From Marinoscillum sp. 108 (GTDB lineage: Bacteria > Bacteroidota > Bacteroidia > Cytophagales > Cyclobacteriaceae), in NCBI RefSeq assembly GCF_902506655.1, contig NZ_LR734808.1, positions 682,001 to 746,000 on the forward strand: DNA of 64,000 bases. The letters run 5' to 3'. How positions within the stretch are numbered: the stretch's first letter is position 1; every line of letters begins with the position of its first letter. This document shows positions 5,393-11,587 of the stretch, piece after piece. Made by a program: the position numbers and the translations under genes. The notes beneath the pieces are model-generated. The model saw only the letters and a list, made by a program, of their open reading frames with translations, had not been told where the DNA came from and searched no databases.

Positions 5393-5605
5393 CGTCATTC
5401 CGGTTTGCGAGGCACGAAGCAATACCGGAATCTCATCCATCATACCCCCTCATCATCAAAGATTCCGGTATTTGTCCATCGCTGCGCTTGTCCAAAACCG
5501 GAATGACGCAGCGGGAAAGGAAGGTCATTCCGGTTTCTGAGGCACGAAGAAGACCGGAATCTTCAACTGTGTGATGGTTCGACAGGCTCACCATGACAGG
5601 TTGAA
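5393..5605. repeat. Cluster of ATTCCGGT/ACCGGAAT hairpin repeats, right of the GIY-YIG gene
   Basis: Three full units at 5393-5433, 5461-5508 and 5524-5561. They share the stem ATTCCGGT/ACCGGAAT; the first and third have a GAGGCACGAAG core, the middle one a TTTGTCCATCGCTGCGCTTG core. About 58 bases from 5425 to 5482 are nearly identical to 4878-4936 left of the nuclease gene. A second repeat type, GTTCGACAGGCTCACCATG, follows at about 5577-5605. Apparent reading frames here are repeat artefacts. From 5606 to 5836 nothing else is recognisable apart from the upstream region of the HU-like gene. Confidence 0.88.
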
Positions 5606-6274: not shown

Positions 6275-6286
6275 TCCTCATGATTC

Positions 6287-6322
6287 ACCGCCATCTTCTG
6301 AAAAAAGATGGCGGTCTTTTTG
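6287..6322 (+). terminator. Rho-independent terminator of the HU-like gene
   Basis: ACCGCCATCTT (6287-6297) pairs with AAGATGGCGGT (6305-6315) and is followed by CTTTTTG. It begins 12 bases after the HU-like stop codon. Confidence 0.85.
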
Positions 6323-6380
6323 AAAAACATGGCCATCTTTTCGAAAAACATCACCGTCTTTTCAGAAAAGATGGCCGTCT
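6306..6380 (+). repeat. Imperfect ~21-base tandem repeats forming nested terminator hairpins
   Basis: Four successive units of the pattern ATGGCC(A/G)TCTTTTCGAAAAAC follow one another, starting inside the first terminator. Units two and four are inverse-complementary (GGCCATCTTTTC at ~6331 with GAAAAGATGGCC at ~6365), making a second large hairpin that ends in TCTTTTTT. The 21-base period makes an antisense frame look like heptad repeats, which is an artefact. The rest of the 6275-6629 gap is the promoter region of the next operon. Confidence 0.7.
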
Positions 6381-6553
6381 TTTTTGGGTTCGTTGGTAGG
6401 GGCTGATTCTGGAGTGATTGGAGACGTATTTCGGGAACTTGGTGATTGCTTTTTAGCACTGAGGAGTTAAGAAAAAAGGTATTGGAAGATGAGAGGGTAA
6501 ACGTGTGCATCAAATGAATCGAGGCAATTACTGCAAATTTTTCATAAAAAGGC

Positions 6554-6629: not shown

Positions 6630-6821
6630 ATGGATTTTATGGATCAGGATGATTTGAAACTAATCGGAATAATTGCTTCAATTGTAATTGGGTTGTTGGG
6701 AGCTGGGTGGTTCGTAAATAAAAACTCCAATAACAAATCAAATAAATCTAAGCAAAAGAACATCTCCATTAATGGCAACAATAATAGAATAGTGGGTGCA
6801 GATGACAATTCAGGCAAATAA
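6630..6821 (+). CDS. Small single-TM protein with Asn/Gly-rich motif; putative membrane half of a split effector
   Basis: 63 residues. Residues ~11-29 form one transmembrane helix (LIGIIASIVIGLLGAGWFV), followed by an Asn/Lys/Ser-rich basic linker. The last ~20 residues carry QKNISING and NRIVG and DNS. The next protein begins with the same pattern (QKNIDIGG, NKIVG, DNS). The stop codon overlaps the next start as TAATG, so the two are translationally coupled. ABC-3C systems normally have an effector domain, often membrane-spanning, fused to a C-terminal domain; here the membrane piece seems to be a separate gene. The shared motif and coupling are seen; the effector role is inference. Not recognisable on its own. 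Confidence 0.7.
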   Translation: MDFMDQDDLKLIGIIASIVIGLLGAGWFVNKNSNNKSNKSKQKNISINGNNNRIVGADDNSGK

Positions 6822-7390
6822 TGGTTAATCAAAAAAACATTGATATTGGTGGAGATGGGAATAAAATAGTAGGTGGTAATGACAACTCTACAACTAATAA
6901 TATTACTATACAGCCCAGTGGAAAGCTTTCATCACTATTTAGTAAGCTTAAAGAGCAATTTGAAGAAGGAGAAAAAATAAGTAATATCTCAAATGACCTA
7001 ATCAGATATACCAGCGATAGAGATATAATTGGTCTTGAAGAGAAGCTGAAATTAGCACAAAAACAACATCTTTTTGAGGACTTTTCATGGTTGAAGCAAG
7101 AATTTCATAAAAAGCTGTTACTCTATCAGGAATATGCCCCAGCACAAGAAATATTTGCGTTCATATTGGCAATAGTTCTGGATAGGTATCGAAATATAAT
7201 AAGGCCAATGCTTCAATCGGGCAGCAGTGAATCAGATGTTTTAAGGTCAATTTCTCAAGAAGTCACACGACCAATATTAGATCTTATCCATCAAGAGGGT
7301 TGTGATGACATTATTGGAATTTCATCTACTGAAATTGAGGGAATGTTTCATTATTTGACAGGAACCTGTCATATAAAATGGGCTGTATGA
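6821..7390 (+). CDS. ABC-three-component system C-terminal-domain (CTD-like) protein
   Basis: 189 residues. Residues 1-35 are an Asn/Gly/Asp-rich strand-like segment (QKNIDIGG, NKIVGG, DNS, NNITI) also present at the end of the upstream small membrane protein. The rest is helical and resembles the C-terminal domain of ABC-3C effector proteins, including an LxEEKxxLAQ-like helix, YAPAQEIFAFILAIV and the terminal FHYLTGTCHIKW signature. In that system class the CTD links the effector to the middle component and SMC-like ATPase. Start overlaps the previous stop by one base and its end overlaps the next gene by 13 bases. It lacks a catalytic or TM effector domain of its own, fitting a split arrangement. 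AT-rich like its partners. Confidence 0.72.
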   Translation: MVNQKNIDIGGDGNKIVGGNDNSTTNNITIQPSGKLSSLFSKLKEQFEEGEKISNISNDLIRYTSDRDIIGLEEKLKLAQKQHLFEDFSWLKQEFHKKLLLYQEYAPAQEIFAFILAIVLDRYRNIIRPMLQSGSSESDVLRSISQEVTRPILDLIHQEGCDDIIGISSTEIEGMFHYLTGTCHIKWAV

Positions 7391-7905
7391 TTGTATATCA
7401 AAAGGCATATGATCTCTACCATACGGTGTACAGGCTAATTAAACTATTAGCTCACTTTAGGGGAGACGGTGACATTGAGATTGATAGGCTTAGAATTTGG
7501 GATTATTACGTTCTCTTTCCTAATAGAATGAGGGCAATAAAGCATAAAAAATCGGAAAAGGATATAAAAGCAATCATCCATCAATACATCCTTAGGCCTG
7601 AAAATCCCTACGAACCTCTTCATAATGATCGGAAGACTTTTGAAAAAATCAAACCTTATCAACTTACCGCAATTAAATGCCTTGCATCATATGGTATGAT
7701 TAATAAAGATTACTTAAACAATAATCGAATTACATCTATTTCAAGAGATTTCTTCTCGAAGTATGATGAGGACTTTAAGAATTTAAGTATCCAAGAGGAA
7801 AATGCTATAAAACTCTTGACCTCTCATTATTATAAAATATCTCTATTTGGACCTTATGGTTTGAAGGCCAAAACAGGTTTATTAGAAAGTAAATATGATG
7901 CATAA
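7378..7905 (+). CDS. ABC-three-component system middle component
   Basis: 175 residues, cytoplasmic, helical. The N-terminal part has the pattern of ABC-3C middle components: a helix YQKAYDLYHTVYRLIKLLAHF, then the characteristic 'IDRLRIWDYYVLFPNRM' (general form hxRLrhhDFYhhFP), followed by a winged-helix-like section with KIKPYQLTAIKCLASYGMI. Middle components are thought to bridge the ATPase and the effector. It overlaps the upstream gene by 13 bases and the ATPase gene by 11 bases, so the four genes form one operon. A start a few codons later (the internal Met at residue 4) is possible. Family-level call is good; exact subfamily is not decidable by eye. Confidence 0.8.
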   Translation: MGCMIVYQKAYDLYHTVYRLIKLLAHFRGDGDIEIDRLRIWDYYVLFPNRMRAIKHKKSEKDIKAIIHQYILRPENPYEPLHNDRKTFEKIKPYQLTAIKCLASYGMINKDYLNNNRITSISRDFFSKYDEDFKNLSIQEENAIKLLTSHYYKISLFGPYGLKAKTGLLESKYDA

Positions 7906-9814
7906 CAACCTCTTTCTAAATAGAATGATAATCCATACTTTGAATGGACAGATTGCATATGATGAAGAATATCACAAAGGGATTAACATCATAAGAGGAG
8001 ATAACAGTAGTGGTAAATCTACAATTACCCATTTTATATTCTATGTATTGGGAGGAGCATTCAATGACTGGGTTAAAGAAGCTAAGAAATGTCAATCAGT
8101 AACAGCTGAGGTTGAGTTAAATGGAGCAGTTGTTACTATTAAGAGGAATATAGTTTTAAATGAATTGGGAAAGGCAAACGATAAGGAAGGAATCTATTTC
8201 TTTTGGGGTAGTTACCAAAAGTCATTAACTCAAAATGATAGCTGGCAAAAATTCAATTTTAATACAACTACTGAAAGGAAAAGCTTCTCCAACGTTCTTT
8301 TTGAAAATTTGGATTTACCTATTGTCAAAGGTGAGAATAATATCACCTTTCATCAAGTGCTTAGACTTCTCTATTTAGATCAAGAGTCCCCAACAAGTTC
8401 ACTTTTTTATTATGAACCATTTGACTCTTCACTAACTAGAGAAACTGTATCCGACTTATTGCTAGGTGTTTACAATCAAGAGCTTTATGACAAACAGCAA
8501 AGAGAAATAGAAGCTGACAGAGAATATGATGATGTGCGAAAGGAGATTAAAATTATCAAACAATTTATTACTAATCCACTGGATCTTGTTCCCAGTAATG
8601 TGGTAACTGCGATCGATAATAAAGAAAAAGAAGTAAGTGAAATAGAAGAGCAAATTATCGGTCTACGAGAGGAAAGCAAACGTCTCAGATATACTCAAAA
8701 AACACAGCTGGAATTTGAAGTATTGAATACTGAATCAATTGGGCAAAGAGAAAAAGTAAATAGACTAAAAAAAGAGATTGCTTCTTTCAGATATGAAATT
8801 GAAGATACTAATTTCTTCATTGAAGCTCTTGAAAATAAAAGGAATGCAATTAAGAAATCAATCAAAACGCGTGATCTATTAGGTGAATTTCCTCTTGAAT
8901 ATTGCCCAGAATGTTTGTCTGACTTATCTAATCACGAGGAAGAAGAAGATAGGTGTAAGTTGTGCAAGCAGAAAATTGATCAAACATTTGGAATTTCTCA
9001 GGCTCGAAAAATTGAACAAGAGCTCAGCTTTCAGATAAAGGAATCTAGGACGCTTGTGATTAAAAAGGAGAGACAATTAATTGATATAGAGGCAAACTAT
9101 GATGCTGAACAGGTAAAATTTCATCAGCTTCAGAGGAGAGTTAATCAAGCCTTAGGCGATGTTCGCTCTCATAGAGAAGAAAAACTCGATTCACTTTATG
9201 TAGAGAAAGGCTTCGTAGAAGGTGAGATTGTTCAGTTGAGAACGTTGCTGGAGAATGCAGAGATCTATCAGAAACTTGTTAATCGAGAGGCTGAATTAAA
9301 GTCTGAATTGGAAGTTCTGTCAAGAACTATATCAACTTTAAAAAACAATCGAGAAAGATTGAAATCAGATATTAATAGGGCTATCGAGAAAAAAGGAACA
9401 TATCTACTTAATAATGACCTTAGAAGACAGTCTGATTTTTATGAAGCAAAGGAGTTTCATATTGACTATGGAAATAACATTGCCTTTATTTCTGATAAAG
9501 ACGCCAAATATTCGGCCAGTTCAAGCTTTTATCTAAAGGCTTCAGCTCGATTCTCTATTTTTCTAGCGTCCTTAGAAATTCCAAATATGCGGTATCCACG
9601 TTTCATTTTTAGTGATAATATGGAGGACAAGGGAATTGAAGAAGAAAGAGCACAAAACTTTCAGAGAATAATAATTGCGGAGTCTGAAAAATTTAATAAA
9701 GATGATTATCAGGTTATTTACACCACTTCTTTTATTCCTAATGAGTTAAATAATACTGCCTACTGTGTTGGTGATTATTATACCGAAAGTAACCCCAGTT
9801 TAAAGAATGTCTAG
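7895..9814 (+). CDS. SMC/Rad50-like ABC ATPase of an ABC-three-component system
   Basis: 639 residues. Walker A is GDNSSGKST (residues 35-43). Two long coiled-coil stretches (about 195-330 and 365-495) flank a zinc-hook-like CPEC...CKLC pair (about 335-358). The C-terminal ATPase lobe has a signature region 'YLKASARFSIFLASL' (~545-560) and an atypical Walker B, RFIFSDNMEDKG (~567-578). The last 60 residues complete the lobe. This layout, smaller than Rad50, is that of ABC-3C ATPases, predicted to sense invading or damaged nucleoprotein. It is the last and largest gene of the operon. No adjacent Mre11-like nuclease is present, arguing against a true Rad50. It ends four bases before a repeat unit. 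Confidence 0.85.
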   Translation: MMHNNLFLNRMIIHTLNGQIAYDEEYHKGINIIRGDNSSGKSTITHFIFYVLGGAFNDWVKEAKKCQSVTAEVELNGAVVTIKRNIVLNELGKANDKEGIYFFWGSYQKSLTQNDSWQKFNFNTTTERKSFSNVLFENLDLPIVKGENNITFHQVLRLLYLDQESPTSSLFYYEPFDSSLTRETVSDLLLGVYNQELYDKQQREIEADREYDDVRKEIKIIKQFITNPLDLVPSNVVTAIDNKEKEVSEIEEQIIGLREESKRLRYTQKTQLEFEVLNTESIGQREKVNRLKKEIASFRYEIEDTNFFIEALENKRNAIKKSIKTRDLLGEFPLEYCPECLSDLSNHEEEEDRCKLCKQKIDQTFGISQARKIEQELSFQIKESRTLVIKKERQLIDIEANYDAEQVKFHQLQRRVNQALGDVRSHREEKLDSLYVEKGFVEGEIVQLRTLLENAEIYQKLVNREAELKSELEVLSRTISTLKNNRERLKSDINRAIEKKGTYLLNNDLRRQSDFYEAKEFHIDYGNNIAFISDKDAKYSASSSFYLKASARFSIFLASLEIPNMRYPRFIFSDNMEDKGIEEERAQNFQRIIIAESEKFNKDDYQVIYTTSFIPNELNNTAYCVGDYYTESNPSLKNV

Positions 9815-10120
9815 GATTCCGGTTTTGGCAAGCGTAGCGATGGCCAAATACCGGAATTTTTTTAGAGTGGTCTCCCGCCAAGCTTCCCATTCTCAGTCAC
9901 TAATGCAGCTGCAGGTCTGTAGCGCCAGAGAATAAACCCCAAATCGCCCATCTGAACCTGTCATGGTGAGCTCCATCGAACCTGTCATGGTGAGCCTGTC
10001 GAACCATTAGACAGGAGCAGATTCCGGTCTTCTTCGTGCCTCAGAAACCGGAATGACGTTCTTTTCCCGCTCCGTCATCCGGTTTTGGACAATGCGTAGC
10101 GATGGCCAAATACCGGAATC
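9814..10120. repeat. Repeat cluster closing the right side of the island
   Basis: The gap 9815-10165 holds three units of the ATTCCGGT/ACCGGAAT family: 9814-9858 (core TTTGGCAAGCGTAGCGATGG), 10020-10058 (core CTTCTTCGTGCCTCAG) and 10073-10120. Between them lie two copies of the second repeat type (CCTGTCATGGTGAGC at ~9956 and ~9980, the latter continuing to CTGTCGAACCATT). The first unit overlaps the stop codon region of the ATPase gene. No gene is seen here. Confidence 0.85.
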
Positions 10121-10165
10121 TTTGCAGCCTAATTGACAAAAACGACCAGAGTCAGATTTTTGACT

Positions 10166-11587
10166 TCAATCCTCATAAATTCCAGCCTTTTCTCCATTAT
10201 ACAGGTCCAGGTCTGTTTTGTCTGAGTGCAGGTCGTAGCTGGCGGACTTTTGCCAAAATTTGTAGCCTATATCACTCCAAACCTTTGGAATGGTAGGCTG
10301 AGGCGCATCGGTATAGTCTGCCACCCAGAGCGGGTATTGACCAAATTTCTCATTGGTCAGGTACTGATCACCAAAGCTTGGGTCGGTGTAGATAATGGGT
10401 TTTCTACCTGACAGGCGCTCCACATGACGAAGAAAAATATAGAGATCCACCTGCAGCTGTAAGGGGTCCACTTCAAAATCAGTAGGTATGCTCTCCGGCT
10501 CAATGTCCAGTATGGGCCCAATGTCGGTGCTGGTCAGCTCACCAAGAGTTGTGACAAAGTGTTCGGCCTGATCTATAGGATCCTGTGACGCGTCATAAAA
10601 GTGATAGGCGCCGCGAATGAGGCCTTTTTCTGTGATCAGGTTCCAGTTGGTATGAAAGTCCGGGTCCACATAGGACTTGCCCTGTGTGGCTTTGCAAATC
10701 ACAAAAGAAAGCAAGTCGCGCTTGCTGACCGCCTGTAGGAGGTCGCCATTCCACCGGGACACATCAATGCCCCGCTGAGTGGCTTGACGGGACCGACTGG
10801 TGGTGTTTTGTCTGGAAGCCAATGACTCCAGATGGCCGTTCAGTGAGTCCAGTCTGTACCCCAACTGATCCTGCTTGTAATCAACCAGTGACAGGGCCCT
10901 CCTGTGGTGGGTGGACTGATAATGAATGTAGATAAACAGGCAGAGGAAGGCGGAGAGGATCGACACCCAGACAGAGAGGATGTTCCAGTTGACCTCACTG
11001 GTCTTTTTTTCTTTATTCAAAGGCTTCTTTTCGGCTATGAGCTGCCCTATGGCACTTGATACGAGCAGTGATCCGGTGCATGTAGAGAGGATCGCATCAA
11101 ACTGGTCGGTATCAAACCTGATGCCCTGATAAACAGTGTTCTTTTTGGTATCCAGGATTTTGTGAGGGTTATCCGTGTAGTCACCTTTGGCATTCAATAC
11201 AATGGGGCCATTTTGGTTTTTGGGATCTATGAAGGCATCCTGTATGAAAAACATGGACTTGTCCCGAGTAGTCTTCCCCCTGCTGATGGAGAGGTAACCC
11301 TCGCGATGCAGGTATTTGAGGAAGGAGATCAATTCAGAAAACTGACTTACTTGCGCTGCTTTTTTCGTTTCGTCATTGAAGAGCTCATTGGTCAAAAAGA
11401 GTACGGCAAATCCCTCGCTAGCCTGAATGATCAGCGCCCGACCTTCGGCCTCTTTGAAGAAAACAGTTTCTAGCCAGCCAGCTATGGGCTGATCAGCAGC
11501 AGGGGGTAACTCCGAAAGACTTTTTACCCAGGATTTTTCCAGATCAGTTAGTTCACGCATGGGTTTGGAATTCATAGATGAGGACAC
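10166..11587 (-). CDS. Membrane-anchored GH25 lysozyme-like muramidase
   Basis: Up to 473 residues; a start at 11575 (MNSKPMREL) is equally likely and shortens the overlap with the gene before it. Residues ~1-195 form an unrecognised cytoplasmic domain, ~200-222 a single TM helix (VWVSILSAFLCLFIYIHY), and ~270-473 a GH25 domain. GH25 hallmarks are RGIDVSRWNGD near residue 270 and the catalytic DIEPE near 352; the tail WQKSASY...DLDLYNG is also typical. GH25 enzymes cleave the MurNAc-GlcNAc bond of peptidoglycan. The topology places the muramidase on the periplasmic side while the N-terminal domain stays inside, an unusual design. Last gene of a minus-strand cluster with unknown proteins. Confidence 0.82.
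   Translation of the reverse strand: MSSSMNSKPMRELTDLEKSWVKSLSELPPAADQPIAGWLETVFFKEAEGRALIIQASEGFAVLFLTNELFNDETKKAAQVSQFSELISFLKYLHREGYLSISRGKTTRDKSMFFIQDAFIDPKNQNGPIVLNAKGDYTDNPHKILDTKKNTVYQGIRFDTDQFDAILSTCTGSLLVSSAIGQLIAEKKPLNKEKKTSEVNWNILSVWVSILSAFLCLFIYIHYQSTHHRRALSLVDYKQDQLGYRLDSLNGHLESLASRQNTTSRSRQATQRGIDVSRWNGDLLQAVSKRDLLSFVICKATQGKSYVDPDFHTNWNLITEKGLIRGAYHFYDASQDPIDQAEHFVTTLGELTSTDIGPILDIEPESIPTDFEVDPLQLQVDLYIFLRHVERLSGRKPIIYTDPSFGDQYLTNEKFGQYPLWVADYTDAPQPTIPKVWSDIGYKFWQKSASYDLHSDKTDLDLYNGEKAGIYED

Follow-up and report, generated by a model that had tools for sequence, protein, structure and literature searches.

A paired motif at adjoining gene ends may couple a separate membrane effector to a Lamassu-like ABC-three-component operon in Marinoscillum sp. 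108

How can a defence system work when its effector and the domain that should hold it are encoded by separate genes? A four-gene operon of Marinoscillum sp. 108 raises this question. It occupies positions 6630 to 9814 (+ strand) of a 64,000-nucleotide stretch of contig NZ_LR734808.1 (the window; positions are counted from its first letter), and a sequence-only reading had described it as an ABC-three-component (ABC-3C) operon with a split effector. Its four open reading frames (ORFs) overlap: 6630-6821, 6821-7390, 7378-7905 and 7895-9814. The first encodes a candidate membrane effector of 63 aa with one transmembrane (TM) helix by hydropathy, and the second a CTD9 protein of 189 aa. Local alignment showed that the tail of the small protein, QKNISINGNNNRIVGADDNS (residues 42-61; 6753-6812), and the head of the CTD9 protein, QKNIDIGGDGNKIVGGNDNS (residues 4-23; 6830-6889), are near-copies of each other: the pair scores 70, and the runner-up among the 34 adjacent same-strand gene pairs of the window scores 28. 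We consider it rather probable that this is a Lamassu/ABC-3C defence system with a separate effector, in which the freed and clustered CTD9 protein templates the membrane effector through the shared motif.

The three larger products were assigned by profile searches, which bore out the proposed ABC-3C identity. The CTD9 protein, which ends in TGTCHIKW, matches Pfam PF20285 (E 4.7e-31; 108.1 bits against a cut-off of 27.9) over residues 71-187 (7031-7381); it consists of the motif and a helical domain only, a solo C-terminal domain (CTD) with no enzymatic N-terminal part, and the effector candidate is the upstream gene. The middle component, in which RLRIWDYYVLFP is present, matches MC5 (PF20291, E 3.1e-38), and the 639-aa SMC-like ATPase (7895-9814) matches the PADLOC LmuB model (E 7.7e-39), with Walker A GDNSSGKS at residue 35, a zinc-hook-like CxxC pair (CPEC and CKLC at residues 337 and 354) and FIFSDN at the expected place of Walker B. 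The TM stretch and all these short motifs, including the altered Walker B, had been pointed out from the letters and were found again. With a CTD, a middle component and an SMC/Rad50-like ATPase all recognizable by their profiles, the operon is of the ABC-3C/Lamassu class. The overlaps of 1, 13 and 11 bases given earlier hold for the ORFs as called; however, homologous middle components begin with M(I/L)(V/I/L)Y, so the middle gene probably starts at 7387, inside the ORF opening at 7378, with an ATGA overlap of 4 bases instead of 13. The small ORF behaves as a gene, because nine close relatives (L008-L016; surveyed loci carry L numbers) keep its size (55-60 aa) and the identical 1-base overlap. 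The genes are indeed AT-rich: the GC content of the operon is 33.5% against a window mean of 46.3 (sd 3.3), the lowest of all 3185-nt stretches sampled every 200 nt.

When 395 genomes of the phylum were searched by profile, six CTD9 loci emerged, among them that of the window, and a search with MC5 picked the identical six genomes. In each of the six, the product of the gene immediately upstream closes with a motif that recurs at the CTD9 head, the letters differing by locus (e.g., tail/head pairs FSQKAGNNSKQYMSKGDM / FKQNAGPNSEQYASEGTM and NIYNNGNIEKQVN / NVNNNGNIERQVN). From a wider scan, 80 of 88 relatives were kept as genome loci, which with four viral contigs and the window gave 85 loci: 77 with a short CTD9 protein and a separate upstream gene, six with effector-CTD9 fusions, one with a TM-CTD9 fusion (L019) and one broken copy (L080). 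Loci of the CTD9 class usually have a split effector; it is therefore real, as had been supposed, but not peculiar to this locus, and its recurrence in 77 of 85 loci rules out an assembly error or a frameshift dividing one gene. The small gene is likewise conserved in homologous operons, L019 being the one natural fusion of TM part and CTD9. Split genes overlap by 1 base in 18 and by 4 bases in 14 of the 77 loci; of 84 loci, 82 have a middle ORF of 120-260 aa, and 71 have a P-loop ORF that is 300 aa or longer. The short CTD9 form spans ten phyla, judged from record titles and tree labels; one Bacillota metagenome-assembled genome, with a CTD9 identical to one from Bacteroidota, is not counted. 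The four loci from the viral collection (L088-L091) show the split and the paired motif likewise. In the window's own genus, a further CTD9 system (L093 / L047) is only 31% identical and has another motif and a two-TM effector.

The sequence-only reading had correctly placed the two halves of the effector in separate genes; however, it offered no link between them and missed the paired motif. Since the 77 split loci include near-copies, we reduced them to 34 clusters at 60% CTD9-domain identity, and each tail/head pair, own or swapped, was given the highest score among the candidate upstream ORFs. Own pairs averaged 61.6 against 29.8 for swapped ones; the observed sum of 2094 was not reached in any of 20,000 permutations (largest 1313), and in 33 of 34 clusters the own pair exceeded all 200 composition-keeping shuffles. 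With 34 candidates on each side, 20 tails had their own head in first place and 25 heads their own tail. At the following gene border of these operons there was no match (20.5 own vs 20.1 swapped), and 472 ordinary adjacent same-strand pairs from the surveyed loci had a mean of 20.7 and a maximum of 45; a score of at least 44 was reached in 32 of 34 clusters and 72 of 77 loci. Tails and heads also covary beyond what the similarity of CTD9 and effector bodies accounts for (Mantel test, partial r 0.64, 0/5000). At identical residues, 195 of 416 codons are shared (46.9%), close to the 43.7% expected from independent draws; the likeness is therefore, to judge from the codons, old and maintained at the protein level, and a recent duplication of motif DNA is rejected. 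The motif has a median length of 20 residues and no predicted fold, and in the AlphaFold model of the window's CTD9 protein, residues 3-28 have a predicted local distance difference test (pLDDT) value below 50.

What stands in front of the motif varies. Of the 77 upstream bodies in split loci, 56 have a single TM segment and 11 have two; for the other 10 none was called, the zero status of L061 and L062 depending solely on the start chosen. Bodies without TM segments include a calcineurin-like phosphoesterase (L021, 5.6e-14), a HetE-N domain (L023, 1.6e-27) and, in five sister loci, a helical protein that looks Bell-like. The CTD9 domains of loci L046 and L054 are 76% identical and their motifs nearly equal, with a helical effector in the one and two TM helices in the other; effector bodies are interchangeable behind a near-constant motif. 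Some effectors (L085, L068) carry two copies of it. A profile of the one-TM effector matched 34 of 385 genomes at E 0.05; the strong matches fell in four genomes and were all CTD9 loci, two of which also had their CTD9 head matched by the motif part of the profile. The best other match (L111, 1.3e-4) looked unrelated.

The motif is absent from the part that precedes CTD9 in the six fused proteins. Two of their N-terminal parts are alpha/beta hydrolases (L070, L086), three are protease-like by eye with no Pfam match (L050, L069, L075), and one is HNH-like by eye (L078; HNH_2 0.017, below the cut-off). A Sulfitobacter plasmid (L095) likewise has an esterase-like domain fused to CTD9. The fused forms fall at three separate places of the CTD9 tree, and at two of these they have split sisters within a well-supported group. 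Because fused forms so scattered are without the motif, motif and separate effector tend to appear and vanish jointly; in the single case of L019, the TM part is fused to CTD9 and the motif is still kept.

The modelled CTD9 fold has its best structural match in the C-terminal region of LmuA. The model was built from 61 of the 77 sequences and replaced a 6-sequence model with a mean pLDDT of 64; Foldseek with it gave nothing better than E 2.6, and the LmuA match surfaced only when the model was compared again with 352 chains of the Foldseek output. When CTD9, MC5 and the SMC protein were searched by sequence against solved structures, no relative was convincing, and PADLOC models did not match the CTD9 protein at any E up to 10; systems of this kind may therefore be overlooked or only half-annotated. 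The operon thus resembles Lamassu type II / DdmABC and ABC-3C in its SMC-like ATPase, its middle component and its modelled LmuA-like C-terminal domain. In LmuA as described in PMC10586767, effector and docking domain lie in one chain; here, a gene of its own encodes the effector, and only the paired motif joins it to that domain. A mechanism may be proposed on this basis. At rest, CTD9 would be docked on LmuB/MC5, as supposed for the C-terminal domain of LmuA; DNA sensing would release it, and freed CTD9 might self-associate, as reported for LmuA. The clustered N-terminal motifs could then template the C-terminal tail of the TM protein by homotypic stacking of the amyloid type, and the clustered TM helices would breach the membrane and halt the infected cell.

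A close known counterpart is amyloid signalling associated with NLRs (BASS motifs and Bell effectors; fungal HET-s). In PMC7889193, PMC8086366 and PMC12261475, the published pairs have one motif at the C-terminus of a small effector and the other at the N-terminus of the receptor, encoded by adjacent or overlapping genes; pairs are locus-specific there and sometimes occur in two copies. The same layout is seen here, yet the receptor arm is the SMC-based CTD9/MC5/LmuB instead of an NLR (STAND NTPase), and the window's effector is one short TM protein. The anatomy is, at the level of sequence, that of amyloid signalling described for NLRs, set on an SMC-based sensor. The window head scored only 24, 24 and 35 against three published amyloid peptides, and the motif was not assigned to a BASS family. 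The helical effector family occurs in two of the 395 genomes beyond the CTD9-positive ones. In one (L099), it adjoins an NB-ARC/TPR protein, i.e., an NLR, with a weak motif match (27; shuffled mean 22.1, maximum 43). In the other (L100; G202:C5:140500-148500), it adjoins a PIN-domain protein of the TPR-GreAB-C-PIN system (PF20698, 1.4e-11), with a strong tail/head match (78; shuffled maximum 57) and a motif resembling the window head (44). Because of this strong pair, the tail/head wiring is, on sequence grounds, not limited to ABC-3C. The principle of effector-associated domains (PMC8195603) is also homotypic coupling, by which interchangeable effectors are attached to a core conflict system; these are small domains, 9 of 12 of them helical in that text. 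The likeness lies in the coupling and in the swappable effectors, and the difference in the coupling element, here a motif of about 20 residues without predicted fold.

In the strongest rival reading, the two motifs bind each other through a stable beta contact that is not amyloid, making a two-chain LmuA that is activated as fused Lamassu is, with no templating. The pairing data fit such a constitutive tether equally well, and six fused effectors without the motif are what mere tethering would lead one to expect; however, two motif copies in L085 and L068 and the HetE-N, NLR and TPR-GreAB-C-PIN neighbours favour a stacking signal, and L019, fused and yet keeping its motif, speaks mildly against it as a single case. 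We regard the tether as unlikely, though to be taken seriously. Less likely still, and in our view quite doubtful, is that the TM protein is no toxin but an anchor that fixes the sensor complex where foreign DNA enters, the effector being LmuB/MC5 or something unseen. The very short TM part and the prevalence of one or two TM segments in the upstream proteins (56 and 11 of 77) agree with an anchor, but in other loci a phosphoesterase, a HetE-N domain or soluble helical proteins take this slot, and fused CTD9 proteins bear hydrolase or, by eye, protease-like and HNH-like parts. Chance likeness of N- and G-rich linkers at both termini, or recently duplicated motif DNA, would suit the composition of the motif (N 15.3%, G 13.6%; 31 clusters counted) and a swapped-pair mean already above that of ordinary neighbours, but is highly improbable given the shuffles beaten in nearly every cluster and the near-independent codons.

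Several points weaken the counts behind the tail/head pairing. Five of the 77 loci score below 44 (L031 29, L073 34, L064 38, L053 41, L028 42), as do two clusters, those of L031 and L064; the score of L031 stays at 29 even with an earlier start assigned, and in L064 the motif is shared by both N-termini instead of tail and head (score 106). The fused proteins, at best 27-42 against any tail, are not fully separated from split heads, whose scores against the tails of other loci have a median of 58 and a minimum of 30. For the codon, Mantel and TM analyses and the counts at 44 or above, each locus was represented by its best-scoring candidate, a choice that slightly favours own pairs. At L064 (3228-3848 and upstream gene), the N-terminal motif partner is 175 aa long, with no Pfam match.

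We lean, a little less firmly, towards a wider statement: an SMC-based DNA sensor that is not an NLR would pass its alarm to a membrane effector by prion-like templating, and the motif of the CTD9 adaptor could pair anew with TM, HetE-N, helical or enzymatic bodies, across ten phyla. What would be new is an SMC-based system wired by a paired motif. A 2021 review (PMC7889193) poses as an open question whether bacterial signalling amyloids act in NLR-independent pathways. Such a spread, if true, exceeds the filamentous bacteria in which amyloid signalling was described, and two fields, SMC-based immunity and amyloid cell-death signalling, would be joined. The operon class offers a compact test case, with four genes, two 20-residue peptides and natural effector swaps and fusions. 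A literature search found no paper joining Lamassu or ABC-3C with amyloid, the founding papers being outside its reach, so an earlier mention is possible there, and solo CTD proteins with TM neighbours may already be tabulated in them.

Searches of plasmids with two helical effectors and one TM effector gave no match, and a motif search in plasmids gave one chance-level archaeal match (E 5), judged by annotation only; the CTD9 protein had no match among phage records. Around the operon, a 146-nt inverted repeat (5457-5602 and 9979-10124, 88% complementary) brackets an HU-like gene together with the four genes, and the repeat element has 33 matches in the genome, some of them paired about 5 kb apart. 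Behind the HU-like gene lie four terminator-like repeats of the AAAAGATGGCSGTCTTTTT type (6286-6384, 21-nt spacing). The operon is adjoined by a gene on the - strand (10166-11587) for a protein with a C-terminal GH25 lysozyme domain (8e-36).
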